The notes under the pieces: generated by a model
Database searches by the model: none
What the model saw: only the letters and a program-made list of their open reading frames with translations
Told to the model about the DNA's origin: nothing
DNA from: Promethearchaeota archaeon
GTDB lineage: Archaea; Asgardarchaeota; Lokiarchaeia; Sigyniarchaeales; SOKP01
Assembly (NCBI GenBank): GCA_016926735.1
Contig: JAFGOA010000079.1
Coordinates: 1 to 59,034, forward strand
DNA: 59,034 nt
Reading direction: 5' to 3'
Part shown: one piece after another, positions 18,570 through 27,749 of the stretch
Numbering within the stretch: the first letter of the stretch is position 1
Layout of the letters: every line of letters starts with the position of its first letter
Program-made: the position numbers and the translations under genes

Positions 18570-19787
18570 ATGACTGTAAAAAAATCAATGTTAAAATATA
18601 TTAATATTGTGAATCCAACAAATATAAAGGTTAAAGAAGAGGATATTTTTCTCAGAGATAAATATAAAGAAATCATAAACTATTTAAAATTAATTTTAAC
18701 CGATTCAAAAGATTTGGAAATAAATAGTTATATTGATTTAAAGGGAAATCTCCTAATAAACATTCTCCCAGGTACAGATATATTAGACTATATAAATGTC
18801 ATTTCTTTTAATTTTTGTATAAACCTAATCCAATTAAAAGAATCAACTATAATTGAAAATTCAAGTGAATTTTTTGAAAATTTTTTTGATATATTAGATG
18901 ATCTTGATAATCTTCTTAATGATCAATCAGATGAAGAAAATAGTGAAAATAAGAAGAAAATTCTTCTTATTGACCAAAACCATAAATTGAATGACATTTG
19001 TGGTAATGTAAATCTATTAGATAAATTTTTATATTACTATAGAGATAAAAAAAATTTAAAGAAACTTTTAAAAAACAATATTTTGTTGATCTGGATTAAT
19101 CATGATTATGATGATATTGTAAAAAACTCTGGGGAAATTTACGATGTTTTCGATGTTATGATAAATATTCCTCGAATAAATAAATTAGAACGAAGTCTAA
19201 TTTTAAAGTCATATATGGAAAAAAAGAAAAAAATTACTTTTGATATTGATCTTATAACAGAAATAACTGAAGATTGGGAAGTAAAAGAAATAAAGAAATT
19301 AATAGAGGTTGCAATTTTAAAACATCATTTAAATTCTGAATTAAATAAACAAAGTAATGAAATTACTGAAATCATACAAAAGATAATTGAATCAGGAGAA
19401 TTTATTCCATCTTTTAAAAAGAAAAAATATAACAATCATAAAGAAAATAATAATCGATCTTACAAAAAAAATTCCAATGATAATAACTCAAATAATAAAG
19501 GAAATCATAATAATAAAGATATAAAAGATATAGTTGATAATATTAAATCAGAAAGATATTCTGATTTCATGTTAAATCAACTATATGAAAATGCTGCTTC
19601 AGAAAATTATAATCAATTAGTAATTCTAATTGATAAACTCTTTAAAAATGAACATTTAGGCGAACCTGATAAAAGATTATTATCAAAATATCCTTTTATT
19701 TTAAACGATCCACCGGGAAAAGCGCAAATAAGCTTAGAAAAAGCTAAAAAGAAAATCGATCTTATAAAAAAATCATTTGGAAAATAA
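18570..19787 (+). CDS. Degenerate AAA+ protein (pseudo-ATPase) at head of SMC operon
   Basis: The protein has 405 residues. Residues ~55-255 keep an AAA+ layout without catalytic residues: GNLLINILPGTDILDYI stands where GxPGTGKT is expected (PGT at 67-69, no GKT), KKILLIDQNHKL replaces Walker B with D-Q for D-E, and NNILLIWINHDYDDI occupies the sensor-1 strand. Next come VMINIPRINKLERSLILKSY and ITEDWEVKEIKKLIEVAIL, like the AAA+ lid. The arginine finger is not visible. A low-complexity Asn/Lys linker (~284-317) leads to a helical C-terminal domain with LNDPPGKAQISLEKAKKKI. Its stop overlaps the long form of smc. Family assignment is by pattern only. Confidence 0.6.
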   Translation: MTVKKSMLKYINIVNPTNIKVKEEDIFLRDKYKEIINYLKLILTDSKDLEINSYIDLKGNLLINILPGTDILDYINVISFNFCINLIQLKESTIIENSSEFFENFFDILDDLDNLLNDQSDEENSENKKKILLIDQNHKLNDICGNVNLLDKFLYYYRDKKNLKKLLKNNILLIWINHDYDDIVKNSGEIYDVFDVMINIPRINKLERSLILKSYMEKKKKITFDIDLITEITEDWEVKEIKKLIEVAILKHHLNSELNKQSNEITEIIQKIIESGEFIPSFKKKKYNNHKENNNRSYKKNSNDNNSNNKGNHNNKDIKDIVDNIKSERYSDFMLNQLYENAASENYNQLVILIDKLFKNEHLGEPDKRLLSKYPFILNDPPGKAQISLEKAKKKIDLIKKSFGK

Positions 19788-19806
19788 AAAAGGAGGGGAT
19801 TATCGT

Positions 19807-22800
19807 TTGAATGTTCAATTAGAAGAACAATCTACTGTTAAAAAAAATAAATTTTTAATTAGGGGAAAAGTCCATATTACTAAAGTGATTTTAGAGAATT
19901 TTCTTTCTTTTAAAAGAGATGAAGTTGATTTTGATGATTCAAAATTTATTATTGTATTAGGTCCGAATTGGTCTGGTAAAACTTCAATCTTTCAAGCATT
20001 AAAATTTGTGTTGGGAAGTAATGAACGTGATTTAAGATATCCAAAATGGTCTGATTTTATAAGACATGGACAAGATCATGCTATGGTGCAAGTAACAATT
20101 AAAAATGGAAAGGAACTAATAGAAATTAGGCGTACAGTAGTAAAAGAGCATTCTCCTTATTATTCATTAAAAAAAAAAGGATCGGAAGAATATATTAGAG
20201 TTAAAACAAGTATAATTCAAGAGATATTAACTAACTTGGATTATAATCCAAATAATCATTTTGCTTTCGTTAGTCAAGGTCATATCGATGCTATTAAAGA
20301 TTTAAAACCTGAAGAATTATGTGATTATTTAGAACATGGAATTGGATTAAAAGAATTAAGAGAAGAAATCTTAGAAAAAAAAAAGGATATTCAATCCCTG
20401 AATAATGAATTAACTTCTTTGAAAACACGAAAAAATTCACTTTCTACAAGTATGGATTTACTTAAACCAAAATTGGAAAGATTAAAAAAAAAAAAAAAAT
20501 TAATTAATAAAAAAAAAATTTTTGAGGATGAATTATTACAGGCTAATAGACAAAAACTCCTTTTAGAAATAATAGATCTAACAGAAGAAGTAAAAAAATT
20601 AAATAATCAAATCCATAAAAATAAGCAAGAACAAGAATTAAATTACAAACAAATTCAACATATAAATTTAGAAATAAACAGTATAGAAGATGAAATTAAT
20701 AATCTTTCTAAAGAACTAGGGGAAAATAATTATAAAAGAGATGATATTGCAAATAAAATTAAGAGTTGGCAAAATGAAAAATTAAAAATGAAACAAGAGA
20801 TTGATGAAATTTCTAAGAAGATTAAAAATATTAAAAAACAAATCAAAGACCAGACAAATGACAAAGAAAAAATACAAGAAAATATAAATAATATTAGAAG
20901 CGAAAAGGGGAACGTAGATAAAGAAATTGAGGAACTTTTTAAAGAACAAAAAGAATTGATGAGTAGAATTGATGCAAATAAGCAATTTTTAGAGGAATAT
21001 AATGAATTAACATCAAAAAGTAATAGTTTACAGAAAGAGATAAATGATAATGAAATCATAATCAAAGATTTAGAAAGTCAAATCGATCAATTATTTCAAA
21101 GTTTTAAAGATATTAACAATAAATTAGATATGAATAAATGGTTTTTAGAAAACCCATCTCCAGAATTATTGCGTAAATTTGATTTTAAACTTAAAAAGAT
21201 AACAGGAGAACTCTTTAATTTAGAAGAAAATCTAAAACGGATAGAAATTCAAAGATCCAAAGCATTAAACCAATTTAAGTCATTACAAAGTTCCTTAAAC
21301 CATCAAAAGCTAATCTTACCAACAGAAATTAATATATTGAAAGATGATATTAAAAAACAAGGTCTAAAAGTTATTGGTCCTATAATTAATTATATTCAAT
21401 ATGATGATGAGCTTAGTTATGCAATAGAATCAATTCTAGGTGAGAAACTCCTCTATAGTTTTGTAGCTAACGATTGGGAAACTTTAGATAAGCTCAAAGT
21501 TCTAAAAAATAAATATAATGCTTATTGCAATATTTATGTTCCTAAAAAGGAACCAATAAAACCATTAATGGATTTTGAAGCTCAAGGTGTGATTGGATAT
21601 CTTGCGGATTTGATAAAAACTAAAGAAATGAATATAAAAAAAGTAATCTATTCTAAAGTTACAAATTGTCTTGTTGTGAAAGATTACCAAATAGGTAAGG
21701 AAATTTATAAAAACTATAATTTTAAAGGTAGATGTGTAACTTTAAAAGGAGAACAAATTATTTCTTACAAATATGTATATGAAACACCTTATCTTAAAAA
21801 GTTAAAAGGTTTACTTAGCACTGGTACTCAGAAAGAACAAGTTGATCAATTAGAAAATGATATTGAAAAATATAACAGTTCAATTTTAGAATTAAAAAAT
21901 AAGATTACAAAGTTAGATAAAATTCAAAAAGATCTTTACAATAAAAAAGAGAATTTTAACGATTTATACTATAATTATAACCAAAAAAGAAGAATTACAA
22001 CAAAAAAAAACAATTTATATGTACAAAAAGGAGAAATAGTAAAAGTTAATATTGAATCCTTAGAGAAAATAAACGATTTACAGCTGAAAATAAAAGAATT
22101 AGAAGAGCAACAAGATCCAGATTTCTTCAATTGGAATGAGAGAATTAAACAAATACCTTCACTTTTATCAGACTTGAATGTGAAAAAGAGAGAATGGGAA
22201 GAAAACATAGATGAAAATAAAGAATTACTCAATAATATAAATCAAAATATACTCCAAATTCACAATCAATTAGATATGTGGGAATCTCAACTAGAATCGA
22301 GAAAAGAAGAATTCCAAAATGCTGATAAAAGTGCATTTGAAATATATAAAGAGTTAGAACTTATCGAAAATCACATAAAAGAAATAGAAAATAATATCAA
22401 GGAACAAAAAAAAAAGAGAAATGAATATGTTAAAACAAAGGGTATTCAAGATGAAAAAAGAATCGAATTAGAATTGAAAATAGAGCAGGATAACATTAAC
22501 TTATCACATATTAATGAAGAATTAATTGAAAAAAATCAAGATTTAGAGAGAATTGATTCACAAATAGGTGATCTAACTAAGGAAGCCCTTAAACCAAGGT
22601 CTATTGAAGAAATTCAAGAAGATATTTATGAAGTTGATAAAGAAATTCTTAAATATTATGATGTTGACGACTCAATATTAGTTGAAAAAGACTATCTTGT
22701 GTCTTCATTAACAAAAATATCAAAAAATCAGGATGATATGGAGAATGATATTAATGCAGCAATAAAAACGGAAGAGAAACTGGAAAAGACATATTATAAT

Positions 22801-23262
22801 AAATTTCAAGATGTTTTAAAAGAATTAACAACAAAAATTGACAATAAATTTAAAGACTCGAACATACAAGTGTATTGTGATTTGAATCTGGTAGGCGAAT
22901 TCGAAGAACTTGGAGTAGATATTAAAGCATCTACTTCAAATAAACCCTTACTATCTTGTACTGCTTTAAGTGGAGGCCAAGTATCAATGGTGGCAATAGC
23001 TTTAATTCTTTCACTCCAAGAAATGAATCCCTCTCCTCTCTGTATGTTTGATGAAGCATCAATGTTTTTAGATGATAAAAATTCAGAAATATCATATGAA
23101 TTGATAAAATCTACTCTTAAGAATAATCCAATACAAATGATTATGTTTTTACCTAAATCTTCAAATGCATTATACAGATTAGCAGAAAAATTAATAGGAG
23201 TAGCTAGAGTAGGGGAAGAGGAAATCTCTACTGTTTTTAAACCAAAAGTTATAGATAATTAA
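19807..23262 (+). CDS. smc: SMC chromosome condensation/segregation ATPase
   Basis: From the longest ORF (ATG 19777, 1161 residues): Walker A GPNWSGKTS (62-70), coiled coil ~180-500, hinge ~525-680 (KVIGPIINYIQYDDELSYAI), return coil ~690-1010, signature LSGGQ (~1064) and Walker B CMFDEAS (~1088) with D-loop. Walker A has Trp and Thr where most SMCs have Gly and Ser (GPNGSGKS), a divergent trait. AGGAGGGG at 19791-19798 is ideally spaced for TTG 19807, so I take that start (1151 residues). It is followed by kleisin and ScpB-like genes, making a complete SMC-ScpAB set preceded by the pseudo-AAA+ protein. Confidence 0.93.
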   Translation: MNVQLEEQSTVKKNKFLIRGKVHITKVILENFLSFKRDEVDFDDSKFIIVLGPNWSGKTSIFQALKFVLGSNERDLRYPKWSDFIRHGQDHAMVQVTIKNGKELIEIRRTVVKEHSPYYSLKKKGSEEYIRVKTSIIQEILTNLDYNPNNHFAFVSQGHIDAIKDLKPEELCDYLEHGIGLKELREEILEKKKDIQSLNNELTSLKTRKNSLSTSMDLLKPKLERLKKKKKLINKKKIFEDELLQANRQKLLLEIIDLTEEVKKLNNQIHKNKQEQELNYKQIQHINLEINSIEDEINNLSKELGENNYKRDDIANKIKSWQNEKLKMKQEIDEISKKIKNIKKQIKDQTNDKEKIQENINNIRSEKGNVDKEIEELFKEQKELMSRIDANKQFLEEYNELTSKSNSLQKEINDNEIIIKDLESQIDQLFQSFKDINNKLDMNKWFLENPSPELLRKFDFKLKKITGELFNLEENLKRIEIQRSKALNQFKSLQSSLNHQKLILPTEINILKDDIKKQGLKVIGPIINYIQYDDELSYAIESILGEKLLYSFVANDWETLDKLKVLKNKYNAYCNIYVPKKEPIKPLMDFEAQGVIGYLADLIKTKEMNIKKVIYSKVTNCLVVKDYQIGKEIYKNYNFKGRCVTLKGEQIISYKYVYETPYLKKLKGLLSTGTQKEQVDQLENDIEKYNSSILELKNKITKLDKIQKDLYNKKENFNDLYYNYNQKRRITTKKNNLYVQKGEIVKVNIESLEKINDLQLKIKELEEQQDPDFFNWNERIKQIPSLLSDLNVKKREWEENIDENKELLNNINQNILQIHNQLDMWESQLESRKEEFQNADKSAFEIYKELELIENHIKEIENNIKEQKKKRNEYVKTKGIQDEKRIELELKIEQDNINLSHINEELIEKNQDLERIDSQIGDLTKEALKPRSIEEIQEDIYEVDKEILKYYDVDDSILVEKDYLVSSLTKISKNQDDMENDINAAIKTEEKLEKTYYNKFQDVLKELTTKIDNKFKDSNIQVYCDLNLVGEFEELGVDIKASTSNKPLLSCTALSGGQVSMVAIALILSLQEMNPSPLCMFDEASMFLDDKNSEISYELIKSTLKNNPIQMIMFLPKSSNALYRLAEKLIGVARVGEEEISTVFKPKVIDN

Positions 23263-23272
23263 GTATGTTAGT

Positions 23273-23923
23273 ATGATTGAATTTAAAGATTTATCAGATG
23301 AGATTAGAGCAAAAATAAAAGTTATATATGAAGATGTCAAGAATGGTAAAATTTCCTTATTAGATTTAGAATTAGTTCCGATTTTTAATGAATTAAAAAA
23401 TACATTGAATATTTCTAATATCAATAGATACTCCAAGGTATATATAGATGCTTGTGATCTTCTTGATGATAAATTTAAGGAATTTAAGGATTTATTAAAT
23501 TCTATGGAAGATGATAAAAAATTTGAGTTATATATAAAATCCAATCCTGATGATAAAGAAATTATTGAATTATTTAATGAATGTTGGATAAAAATATTTC
23601 AACTTCAATCTCTTTCTTATGATTTTTTAGAACAAAGTTTTACAAAATTAAATCGTGATAGATTACCATCAATAATAATAGAACATCTAAAGAGAGATGA
23701 TGTTAAAGAAAATTTCATCCTTGAATTACCTACTCAAAAATTTACAGATAAAATGAATGAATTTCTTGAAGAAATTAAGAAAAAATTACCATGTAATTTT
23801 AATTCTATTTTTGACAAAATAGAAAATCAGATTGAAATTTATGAAAAATTTGTGTATCTTCTACATCTATTACAAATAAAAGAAGTAAAATATAAGCATG
23901 AAACAGATACCTTATATATATAA
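23273..23923 (+). CDS. scpA: Kleisin, divergent ScpA
   Basis: The protein has 216 residues. The N-terminal part has a short helical region with YEDVKNGKISLLDLELVP, like the ScpA segment that binds the SMC neck. The C-terminus EKFVYLLHLLQIKEVKYKHE followed by TDTLYI fits the ScpA winged helix (fLalLeL-r...v...Q...F.dI.i). The middle is poorly conserved. The identification rests on the C-terminal pattern plus position 10 bases after smc and before the ScpB-like gene. No clear Shine-Dalgarno site is present, so it may be coupled to smc. Confidence 0.7.
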   Translation: MIEFKDLSDEIRAKIKVIYEDVKNGKISLLDLELVPIFNELKNTLNISNINRYSKVYIDACDLLDDKFKEFKDLLNSMEDDKKFELYIKSNPDDKEIIELFNECWIKIFQLQSLSYDFLEQSFTKLNRDRLPSIIIEHLKRDDVKENFILELPTQKFTDKMNEFLEEIKKKLPCNFNSIFDKIENQIEIYEKFVYLLHLLQIKEVKYKHETDTLYI

Positions 23924-23955: not shown

Positions 23956-24477
23956 ATGTATTATTTAAGTAAAAAGAAAAGTAAATCCCAAATGGGAGCA
24001 ACTAAGGAAGAGATTGTTGAAGCACTTCAAGTAAAAGGAAAAAATGAATCAATTTTTTTTCAAGAACTAGTACACAATTTATCAAGATACATTGAACCAC
24101 TCGGACTTTATATCAGATTTAATCCTTTAGATGATCATTGGTTTATCTCTTATGATGATGAAATGTCCAATTTAGTTGCTGCAAATCCTTTTAAAAGTAA
24201 ACCTAAACTTGCAGCTACATTATTTTGTGTTATTATTTGTACATATTCAAATTCAGGAATTGCTAGAGTAAAAGAAATTATGGAAATAAGAAAGAAAAAA
24301 GATATATTAGAGGATTTGAAAGAATTAGAAGAAGATGGATATATACAAACAGATGAAAAGACAAATGAAGTTCGTTTAACTCCGTTGATAGGCTATCAAT
24401 TAGATTTACAAAAACTATTTACCAAACTTTCTTTAAAGCTAAAGTCAAGTGAAATTAAAACAAAAGATCAGTCTTAA
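23956..24477 (+). CDS. scpB: ScpB-like winged-helix partner of SMC-kleisin
   Basis: The protein has 173 residues. The pattern EEIVEALQVKG, then PLGLYIRFNPLDDHWFISYD, then KLAATLFCVIICTYSNSGIARVK, then ILEDLKELEEDGYIQTD fits the two tandem winged helices of ScpB. It completes the SMC-ScpA-ScpB complex, in which ScpB dimers clamp the kleisin centre. An AGGTGAT site (23924-23930) is 25 bases before ATG 23956, too far for normal initiation, but only 4 bases before ATT 23935, which is in frame with no stop between, so initiation at AUU is possible. Confidence 0.75.
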   Translation: MYYLSKKKSKSQMGATKEEIVEALQVKGKNESIFFQELVHNLSRYIEPLGLYIRFNPLDDHWFISYDDEMSNLVAANPFKSKPKLAATLFCVIICTYSNSGIARVKEIMEIRKKKDILEDLKELEEDGYIQTDEKTNEVRLTPLIGYQLDLQKLFTKLSLKLKSSEIKTKDQS

Positions 24478-24587: not shown

Positions 24588-25223
24588 TTAGTTTTCAGTA
24601 GTTATTTTTAGAATCATTTCAGCTACGTGATTATTGTATGTCTCAATATCTCCAAATCCCTCTATCTTCTCTCCACAAGTCATAAAATAATCCTTTATTT
24701 CAATTTTTCTTTCATTAAAGAATTTAGAAATTTTGGACTTTATCTCTTCTACTTTTTTTTCACGATCTCCATCTATAAGATCAATTTTATTAACAGCACA
24801 GAAAATTGAATTAGGAAAAAAGCGTATATCATTGAAGAATTCAAATTGTTTTTCAATAGGGCGATCACAAGAAAAAACTGCAACTATTTGGGTTGCTATT
24901 CTACTAATTGTAATAATACCCATTTTAACAACCGCTCGAGAAGAATCTCCTCCTGGTGCAAAAATTGTATGTGCTTTATTTGTAGTATCTTCCCTAAAGA
25001 CAACTCTATTTGGGTGAATTGTTTTTGTTTCTTTTTCATTAAGTTTATTCTGTTTATCTCCTTCAGGTAAAGTAGCTTCACCTGAGAAATCAGTTTTTAT
25101 GACAGTACATTTACGACCACCTTCAACATTTTCAATATCACCCTTATTTAGATATTTTACAAAAAGTCGTAATATTGAGGTTTTCCCAACAGACACATCT
25201 CCCAACAAACCAATATTAACCAT
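24588..25223 (-). CDS. Small GTPase-like protein with unusual G3
   Basis: The protein has 211 residues. G1 is GDVSVGKTS (8-16). Where Ras-like proteins have DTAGQE it has IFAPGGDSS, followed by RIATQIVAVFSCDRP, then G4 VNKIDLI and a possible G5 in MTCGEK. This resembles archaeal Sar1/MglA-like GTPases more than eukaryotic Rab/Ras. A 35-residue insertion rich in charge (GEATLPEGDKQNKLNEKETK) sits in the switch I region. GGATGTGAT lies about 7 bases before the ATG. It is third in a same-strand trio after two unknown genes, which suggests a GTPase and its partners. Confidence 0.75.
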   Translation of the reverse strand: MVNIGLLGDVSVGKTSILRLFVKYLNKGDIENVEGGRKCTVIKTDFSGEATLPEGDKQNKLNEKETKTIHPNRVVFREDTTNKAHTIFAPGGDSSRAVVKMGIITISRIATQIVAVFSCDRPIEKQFEFFNDIRFFPNSIFCAVNKIDLIDGDREKKVEEIKSKISKFFNERKIEIKDYFMTCGEKIEGFGDIETYNNHVAEMILKITTEN

Positions 25224-25269
25224 TAAAGAATCACATCCAATCGTTTTATAAAATTAAATATATATATTA

Positions 25270-26088
25270 TTATAATTCATCTCCGAGGAGTTTTCTTAAA
25301 AGAGTTTCATAATCTTCAATTAAAAATTGTTCAAGATAAGCATTATTATGTGAATGAATTAATGCAACCAGAACTTCTTTTAAATTTTTAGTTTTTTTTG
25401 CATAAGCAATAATATTCTCAGGTGTTGTTTCCTTATCAAATTTAGTTATGGCTTTTTCAAAACCAAAATTCTTCAAAGGAGGCATTGAATTAAAGAATCC
25501 AAATGCTGTATATCCTTCATATTGAAAGAATATAAAAAATCGTGATTTTATAGATTTAATTATATTTGTTAAATATACAGAGGGGTATAATTCACCTAAA
25601 GTAAGTTGATCGTCTTGTTTTATTACAAAGTATGGTGAAATAGGTGAAGATTGTTTTCCAAACATCTCACTAGGAGGGAGTGATATAAAAGGAAGTTTTT
25701 CAGAAATGATTGCCCAGAGATCCTCTCTTTTTTTATCTAATAATATATCTTTTATTTCATCATAAGCAAAATAGAAATCTGATTGTAAGGATAATAAAGA
25801 ACTAAGATATACTGATAAAGAAGCGAAAGTTGCTTCTATAAGAGGTCTTCTACCACTAGAATCAGAAGTTGATGGTTTAACAGCACCTTTCCAACCACGT
25901 AAAGCTGAATAAGCAAATCCTTGAACATCAAAAAAGCCACCAGATAAGAAAATAAACGAGGGAGTCACTCGTTCCTTATCGGTTAAAAATGAATTTGCTT
26001 TAGATATTAAAATTTCTTCTAATTCAGGTGTATTGAACTTTGAATGAACTTTAGGCATTATGAGCCATTTTTTATTCTTATTCGCCAA
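25270..26088 (-). CDS. Unknown protein co-oriented with GTPase
   Basis: The protein has 272 residues and I do not recognise a family. It looks globular and soluble, with a hydrophobic central region (ATFASLSVYLSSLLSLQSDF), an aromatic-rich strand (SRFFIFFQYEGYTAFGFF) and a helical acidic C-terminus (DYETLLRKLLGDEL). The start is TTG 26088 with AAAGGGTG about 8 bases upstream. It ends 46 bases before the GTPase start on the same strand, so it is probably co-transcribed; an effector or regulator of the GTPase is a guess. Confidence 0.6.
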   Translation of the reverse strand: MANKNKKWLIMPKVHSKFNTPELEEILISKANSFLTDKERVTPSFIFLSGGFFDVQGFAYSALRGWKGAVKPSTSDSSGRRPLIEATFASLSVYLSSLLSLQSDFYFAYDEIKDILLDKKREDLWAIISEKLPFISLPPSEMFGKQSSPISPYFVIKQDDQLTLGELYPSVYLTNIIKSIKSRFFIFFQYEGYTAFGFFNSMPPLKNFGFEKAITKFDKETTPENIIAYAKKTKNLKEVLVALIHSHNNAYLEQFLIEDYETLLRKLLGDEL

Positions 26089-26178
26089 ATTAATAACACC
26101 CTTTCATAATATATAGATATTAAATATAACAAATTTAATATTTTTTATTCTATACAATATTTTATAAATTAATCCAAA

Positions 26179-26787
26179 TTAAGCTTTTTCTTCAACTAGT
26201 AATTCTTGTATTTTTAAAGTGATTAAATCATAATCATTTATTGAGTTTAAATTATCTATATTAATCTTTTCGATAACGTCTGAATTCTTAAAATATTCAT
26301 ATCTTAAAACTAATTCACTATTTTTTTCCTTTATTTTAATTAATGCTCCTTTTAAAAAGATTTTGATAAATTTTTCTGACATCTCTCTTATATTAAGTTT
26401 TGGAGGATCAATAAATTTTATTTCTAACCTATTCATATCAATTAGATTTAAAACACATATTAATTCACCTTCTTTATCATTTCCCTTAGAGAATATTTTT
26501 CTTTTAATTTTAGTACCTTTTACTTTATCTTGGAGGATATTTTCATTAAAATATTTTTCTTCTTGAGGGATAGTCTGTTCATTTTTAATTTCTGAATAAA
26601 TTTCTTTAGCACTATGGAAAGATTTAGTAGCAATATATTTTGTTAGATAATTTAATATATCTTTTAACTCAGATATTTCAATCTGAAGCTCCTCCAGTTG
26701 TTCTTTTTTCTTGTAATAGAGATTTTGAATTGAAGATAAAATATTAGTTATTGTTTCAATATCACTATTTTTTTCTTTTCTCTGCAT
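26179..26787 (-). CDS. Unknown coiled-coil protein upstream of GTPase unit
   Basis: The protein has 202 residues. Residues ~10-50 form a coiled coil (LYYKKKEQLEELQIEISELK). The C-terminal ~110 residues look like a small alpha/beta domain: GELICVLNLIDMNRLEIKFI, then REMSEKFIKIFLKGALIKIK, then ELVLRYEYF. The strand-helix pattern could suit a dimerising adaptor of longin/roadblock kind, but no motif proves it. It is first of three same-strand genes ending with the GTPase and has a weak start context (ATG 26787, no Shine-Dalgarno site). Confidence 0.55.
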   Translation of the reverse strand: MQRKEKNSDIETITNILSSIQNLYYKKKEQLEELQIEISELKDILNYLTKYIATKSFHSAKEIYSEIKNEQTIPQEEKYFNENILQDKVKGTKIKRKIFSKGNDKEGELICVLNLIDMNRLEIKFIDPPKLNIREMSEKFIKIFLKGALIKIKEKNSELVLRYEYFKNSDVIEKINIDNLNSINDYDLITLKIQELLVEEKA

Positions 26788-26882
26788 TGTCTTAGTATAT
26801 ATTTTAATAAAAATTAAATTTTATTTATTTATAAAAACAAGATATTACCTAATTAAGTAATTTATAATGGAGATATATAATT

Positions 26883-27749
26883 TTGAATAGAAAAATAATG
26901 ATAATAACATCAAATTCCCAAGATCCAGAGGTTCAAATCTTATCAAATGAATTGAAAAAAAGGAATTTTATAGTCAAATATTTTGTTGCTAAAAGATTTA
27001 TTGCAAATATCTCTAATTTTGAAGAAGAATTTAAAGATTTAAATCCTAAAATAGGATTGGTTAGAGGAATTGGAATTGTACCTTCCCAAAAAATTTTCTT
27101 TAGGCTCGATTTATTAAGTGCTATCGAAAAAATAGGAATTAAACTAATAAATTCAAGAGAATCATTAGAGATCGCAAGTGATAAATTTCTATCTTCTTTA
27201 TATCTAACTTCACATAAAATATCTACTCCAAAAACGATTGTATGTGAAAATAATATTGATGCCTTAAAAGCTTATGAGGATTTAGGGGGAGATATATTAT
27301 TGAAACCTCTATATGGATCAAAAGGGATTGGAATTATCAGAATAAATGATAAAGATTTTGCCGAAAATGTTTTAAATGCACTTGGACAATTAAATGAAGT
27401 ATTTTATTTGCAAAAATATGTTGAACATTATAATAAGGATATTAGGATTTTAGTCATCGATAATCAAGTTATTGCTGGTATGCATCGTATTAGTGATAAT
27501 TGGAAAACGAATATTCATGCAGGAGCAAAAATAAAACCGTTAAGAATAAATGAGGAATTAAAAGAATTAGCAATAAAATCAGCTGAAATTACTAAGACTG
27601 ATATTGCGGGTGTAGATATTATGGAAAGTAATGAAGGATATCAGGTTATTGAGATTAATTCAATTCCAGGATTCACAGCACTTCAAAAAGTGACAAATAT
27701 AAATATATCAAAGGAGATTATTGATTTTGTACTAACTAAAGCAAATTAA
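26883..27749 (+). CDS. RimK/LysX/MptN-type ATP-grasp ligase
   Basis: The protein has 288 residues. The order is preATP-grasp domain (~1-100, KIMIITSNSQDPEVQILSNE), then ATP-grasp features: DILLKPLYGSKGIGIIRI, FYLQKYVEHYNKDIRILVID, VIAGMHRISDNWKTNIHAG, and VDIMESNEGYQVIEINSIPG with the metal-binding Glu and Asn. It adds amino acids, usually glutamate, to a carboxylate. In archaea the closest functional names are MptN (tetrahydromethanopterin) and CofF (F420); sequence alone does not decide. GGAGAT 8 bases before TTG 26883 supports that start over ATG 26898. Confidence 0.8.
   Translation: MNRKIMIITSNSQDPEVQILSNELKKRNFIVKYFVAKRFIANISNFEEEFKDLNPKIGLVRGIGIVPSQKIFFRLDLLSAIEKIGIKLINSRESLEIASDKFLSSLYLTSHKISTPKTIVCENNIDALKAYEDLGGDILLKPLYGSKGIGIIRINDKDFAENVLNALGQLNEVFYLQKYVEHYNKDIRILVIDNQVIAGMHRISDNWKTNIHAGAKIKPLRINEELKELAIKSAEITKTDIAGVDIMESNEGYQVIEINSIPGFTALQKVTNINISKEIIDFVLTKAN

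Follow-up and report, generated by a model that had tools for sequence, protein, structure and literature searches.

A catalytically degenerate AAA+ gene precedes a non-canonical smc gene in Lokiarchaeia and several other Asgard archaea

The AAAx locus and its AAA-derived protein

The window, a 59,034-nucleotide contig of an Asgard metagenome-assembled genome (MAG; internal label G000:C109), carries a reading frame for a 405-residue protein, here called AAAx (18570-19787, forward strand), whose standing as a gene rests on the open frame, on homologues upstream of smc and on dN/dS. Downstream of it, and in the same orientation, lie genes for a non-canonical SMC protein (19807-23262), an ScpA-like kleisin (23273-23923) and an ScpB/kite-like winged-helix protein (23956-24477), in line with the smc-scpA-scpB operon into which a preliminary description had wired AAAx. 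That description also had the AAAx stop overlapping smc, which is correct for the mechanical reading frame opening at TTG 19777. However, because the Shine-Dalgarno-like AAGGAGGGGA (19790-19799, forward strand) precedes the in-frame TTG at 19807, smc probably starts at the latter, which would replace the overlap with a spacing of 19 nt; gaps of about 20 nt separate the two genes in many relatives.

Profile comparison shows the kleisin to be homologous to ScpA along most of its sequence: its family profile (A3) aligns with that of canonical Asgard ScpA over 185 columns (hhalign probability 94.8, E 5.4e-8), and weak PDB matches are to archaeal ScpA. For the ScpB/kite-like protein, profile A4 aligns with canonical ScpB at E 1.2e-4 with a probability of just 55, and one family member alone matches Pfam SMC_ScpB (1.2e-6). 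Bacterial and canonical archaeal Smc-ScpA-ScpB systems likewise hold SMC, kleisin and kite-like genes in a single operon, but the window differs from them in its additional upstream AAA-derived gene and its low-scoring SMC.

Several neighbours of the operon were also noted. A block 3' of scpB (24588-27749), comprising a GTPase-like gene, two unknown genes and a RimK-like ATP-grasp gene, is kept across the window's own family, f1 (family labels, f1 to f29, are internal). Elsewhere, MoxR-type AAA_5 and VWA-like genes of about 570 aa each adjoin the AAAx-SMC operon (L088, 3551-6989; L101, 3978-7287), lying divergently in f8 and directly upstream and co-directionally in f10, as identified with Pfam. 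Gene pairs of the same sizes occur in other f8 loci and in L102 (f12), the f12 pair being matched by size alone.

AAAx itself is predicted to comprise four parts, all on the forward strand: an AAA+ core (about residues 28-200; 18651-19169), a lid region (201-283; 19170-19418) in which W236 is invariant in our alignment, an Asn/Lys-rich linker (284-325; 19419-19544) with 14% identity within f1, and a conserved C-terminal helical domain (326-405; 19545-19784) that is the hallmark of the family. The AF2 model (29-row alignment; m304ab1dab1ca) has a mean pLDDT of 78.9 and low confidence at residues 290-316, in keeping with the disorder proposed earlier for residues 284-317. Foldseek pairs this model with p97 D2 (E 6.6e-8) as well as Vps4, Msp1, PAN and FtsH, at modest TM-scores of about 0.33-0.46 of the query. 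The family profile (A1) matches Cdc48 (E 1e-15) and Vps4 (2.6e-9), and four family members match Pfam AAA (best 6.8e-11). The single AAAx sequence gave no meaningful match in Pfam or the PDB, so the AAA+ assignment depends on the fold, the family profile and the orthologues; taken together, the predicted structure and these two further lines confirm the AAA+ fold that had been read from the sequence and place it in the classic clade.

Fold, strand order and lid helices are thus common to AAAx and the classic AAA+ proteins (p97/Cdc48 D2, Vps4, Msp1, PAN), from which AAAx differs by its extra conserved C-terminal domain, its smc-adjacent gene and the loss of catalytic residues. In an alignment of 63 sequences, including homologues of f8 and f22, PGTDIL replaces PGTGKT at the P-loop (residues 67-72; 18768-18785, forward strand), the column reading GNLLINILPGTDILDYIN in AAAx and GKLLIHGRPGTGKTTLVY in an f22 homologue. 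Walker B ends in DQ (residues 135-136; 18972-18977, forward strand), with KILLIDQ in AAAx against LILFIDN in f22 and LFIDE in canonical AAA proteins. The arginine-finger position reads YDVFD in AAAx and WRRFD in canonical AAA proteins, f22 keeping one arginine (RFD). Walker A GK[ST], the Walker B Asp-Glu pair and the arginine finger(s) are therefore all absent, as the preliminary description had it.

These losses extend beyond the window. Most f1 members have a P-loop of the PGTD type, many of those in f8 read GPPGTDFE, and f22 has GRPGTGKTT. Walker B, which is IDQ in AAAx, is IDNFD in f22 and frequently INQ among f1 members. Of the smc-linked homologues examined from f1-f4 and f8, only that of G047 (L120) retains the P-loop lysine. 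This last genome is placed in f4, has 9% contamination and carries an f22-type operon, which reflects either contamination or transfer.

A second SMC lineage and its linkage to AAAx

The window SMC exceeds the Pfam cut-offs for SMC_N (70 bits) and SMC_hinge (32 bits). Against the NCBIfam models SMC_prok_B and SMC_prok_A (TIGR02168/TIGR02169), it scores 233 and 224 bits, where the cut-offs are 567 and 729 and a canonical Asgard SMC reaches 732 and 938. The operon does encode an SMC superfamily protein, but not the canonical one: the curated scores fail, and a canonical SMC of 1479 aa is encoded elsewhere in the same genome (L122, 6958-11397; G000:C212). A single PF06470 match to the latter frame pointed misleadingly towards Rad50, a designation we rejected since its motifs (GKSN, QFIVISHRE) and its position in the head tree are those of a canonical SMC. 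At 1479 aa it is far above the usual 1190, similar lengths occurring in f2 and f18 genomes, and a 404-aa frame with no Pfam match lies directly upstream of it.

A profile of window-type SMC heads scored SMC5/6 at about 118-152 bits (SMC5 to 152, SMC6 to 138) and SMC1-4 at about 120-174 bits; the corresponding canonical-head profile gave 58-80 and 204-269 bits, respectively. In head trees that included SMC5, SMC6 and SMC2 sequences from the PDB, the SMCs of f1-f12 are monophyletic (99.7/100) and stand apart from the canonical, bacterial and SMC2 sequences (99.9/100), as do those of the SMC5/6 type. The f22 SMC joins eukaryotic SMC5/6 (93/91). For the f1-f12 group, the AU test did not separate a placement with SMC5/6 from one on the canonical side (0.47 versus 0.62). 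Further features in common with the SMC5/6 type include a proline in place of the H-loop histidine (TP or similar), found in the window-type group as in SMC5 and SMC6 sequences, an FIRxG N-head motif and a putative kite-type complex. By these scores and trees, the window SMC is a second SMC lineage beside the canonical one. Archaeal SMCs have been divided into canonical and SMC5/6-related versions (PMC9389158), and the window SMC is compatible with the latter.

This non-standard SMC is preceded near-universally by an AAAx-type gene, both in Lokiarchaeia and in several further Asgard lineages. An AAAx homologue is present in 47 of 58 relatives, with smc directly downstream at each locus read with enough contig. 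A search of contigs with the SMC profile (A2) returned Lokiarchaeia relatives only (Candidatus Lokiarchaeota, Lokiarchaeia, Prometheoarchaeum and Harpocratesius). We also searched 393 archaeal genomes, mostly draft MAGs and some 165 of them non-Asgard, with the C-terminal domain profile A7. There were 112 matches, one per genome, and all but two marginal ones are Asgard genes directly ahead of smc. By coordinates, 109 of them precede an SMC of the A2 type at a distance of -10 to 145 nt. The other three comprise one at a contig end (G133), where L099 shows smc beginning directly after the homologue, and the marginal pair (G092, 9e-5; G254, 9e-4). The finding that the preliminary description had named as refuting the link, homologues detached from smc that retain GKT/DE, was not encountered; f22 keeps GKT yet is itself smc-linked. 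Canonical SMC-ScpA-ScpB loci of the same phylum (L109-L116, L121, L124) lack the C-terminal domain. One further locus (L117; G111, f19) has a partial non-canonical SMC followed by an ScpB-like gene, its upstream side being lost at a contig end.

Descent, selection and the conserved tail

Loss of catalytic residues may indicate a decaying pseudogene, a reading that is barely credible here given intact frames in nearly all genomes and dN/dS well below 1. Between near relatives, dN/dS is 0.11-0.26 over the whole gene and 0-0.15 over the last 80 residues, values close to those of smc (0.05-0.20). AAAx is thus under purifying selection. Mean identities of AAA core and tail are 40 and 69% in f1, 20 and 46% in f2 and 33 and 61% in f8, so that families with a dead P-loop span 20-40% in the core and 46-69% in the tail. 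In f22 they are 78 and 77%; this family is a single genus, and only the ratio of the two is therefore informative. Families with a dead P-loop thus show a core that drifts faster than their tail, and no such drift is seen where the P-loop is live. In f10 and f12 (L101, L102) the core has shrunken, with lid and tail retained.

The tail is lysine-rich and, folded alone with AF2, forms four helices at a pLDDT of 93.8; a fold search against the PDB returned no match (best E 2.1). Aside from the two marginal matches, it is confined to the AAAx gene across the 393 archaeal genomes. It is accordingly an undescribed domain, restricted to AAAx in the genomes searched.

The origin of AAAx is indicated by f22, an Asgard family that has GKT with Walker B DN in an equivalent smc operon. 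Its orthologues match Pfam AAA (4.1e-25) and AAA_lid_3 (3.8e-8) and carry the AAAx C-terminal domain at their end. As f22 is a genuine AAA+ protein with the AAAx tail in the same operon, AAAx descends from such a protein, and its dead form is, to judge from sequence comparison, the derived state of an ATP-binding classic-clade AAA+ ancestor. The families then offer a series of steps from ATPase to pseudoenzyme within one operon: GKTT (f22), PGTDFE (f8), PGTDIL (f1) and shrinkage of the core (f10/f12). Two other AAA genes were considered and set aside. An intact one (GKTT, IDEFD, RRFD) adjoins an SMC-like gene of 1067 aa in G110 (L097) and was dropped as the active ancestor, as it lacks the C-terminal domain and its SMC has no close relative in the other genomes searched; for an active AAA in G088 (L096), no smc link was seen on its short contig. 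The f22 SMC is just 831-841 aa long (L098, L118, L119, L120), implying short coiled-coil arms.

Proposed role and its alternatives

Tail and lid are constant and the catalytic core is dispensable, which suggests docking of the tail on SMC or kleisin, with the AAA body as a platform. We favour, with some reserve, the view that AAAx is a pseudo-AAA+ subunit of a second Asgard SMC-kleisin-kite complex, in which it would serve as a loader or as a structural adaptor; this second machine would then probably have AAAx as a fourth part not described before. AAAx would physically associate with the SMC complex through its C-terminal helical domain, which would dock onto the core formed by SMC and kleisin; the AAA-derived body may offer contacts to protein or DNA without ATP turnover. 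Against this stand the modest Foldseek TM-scores, a tail with no recognisable relative and the preponderance of draft MAGs, as well as the fact that operon adjacency may also reflect co-regulation. SMC loaders and regulators such as Scc2 and Nse5/6 provide a parallel, as AAAx, too, would regulate an SMC ring as an additional non-SMC protein. These proteins have HEAT-repeat or other folds, not AAA+, and we know of no AAA+-derived subunit in Smc5/6. Our search of the literature on Asgard and archaeal SMC with AAA found no description of such a pairing.

A bolder version is that AAAx is an obligate fourth component of an archaeal SMC5/6-related complex, once an ATP-driven loader or remodeller and now a pseudoenzyme with an essential C-terminal domain; we put this forward tentatively, as somewhat unlikely in so strong a form.

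AAAx may instead work independently of the SMC ring, binding DNA or acting as a regulator, its gene being simply kept in a shared transcription unit. Adjacency alone is no proof of binding, and a lysine-rich tail would suit such a protein. However, the linkage has been kept across at least eight families whose neighbours otherwise change, and beyond the two marginal matches the 393 archaeal genomes yielded no copy unlinked to smc; we regard this explanation as unlikely.

The preliminary description had offered three roles, namely loader, adaptor and partner of an active AAA+ ATPase, of which the last is the least favoured. In that role AAAx would sit, without catalytic activity of its own, in a hexamer shared with an active AAA+ protein of the Cdc48, PAN or Vps4 type and would recruit the ring to the SMC complex. 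Its nearest neighbours by fold and profile are indeed hexameric classic AAA proteins, and the genome has active paralogues, including a PAN-like protein with intact motifs. Two observations nevertheless make this distinctly improbable. Firstly, it is the AAA core that evolves fast, and in f10/f12 it has shrunk. Secondly, no active AAA gene is kept beside the operon in f1-f4, and a MoxR-type neighbour occurs in f8 and f10 only. Retained nucleotide binding, with AAAx working as an ATP sensor, is conceivable for f22, where GKTT and the TNRPD sensor region are kept alongside IDNFD, the P-loop being intact and the Walker B glutamate replaced by asparagine. For AAAx it is highly improbable, as f1-f4 and f8 have lost both the lysine and the threonine of the P-loop and, in many cases, the Walker B aspartate too.

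No known prokaryotes are closer to eukaryotes than the Asgard archaea, whose chromosome folding and segregation have, to our knowledge, hardly been studied. If a second SMC system has a universal pseudo-AAA+ partner, this would add a new kind to the known SMC subunits and mark a second SMC machine in Lokiarchaeia. AAAx is also a definite candidate for tests in organisms whose genomes are named, such as Harpocratesius and Prometheoarchaeum. Were the reading as an obligate fourth component to hold, the Smc5/6-type lineage would have had an AAA+ partner before, or outside, the eukaryotes.
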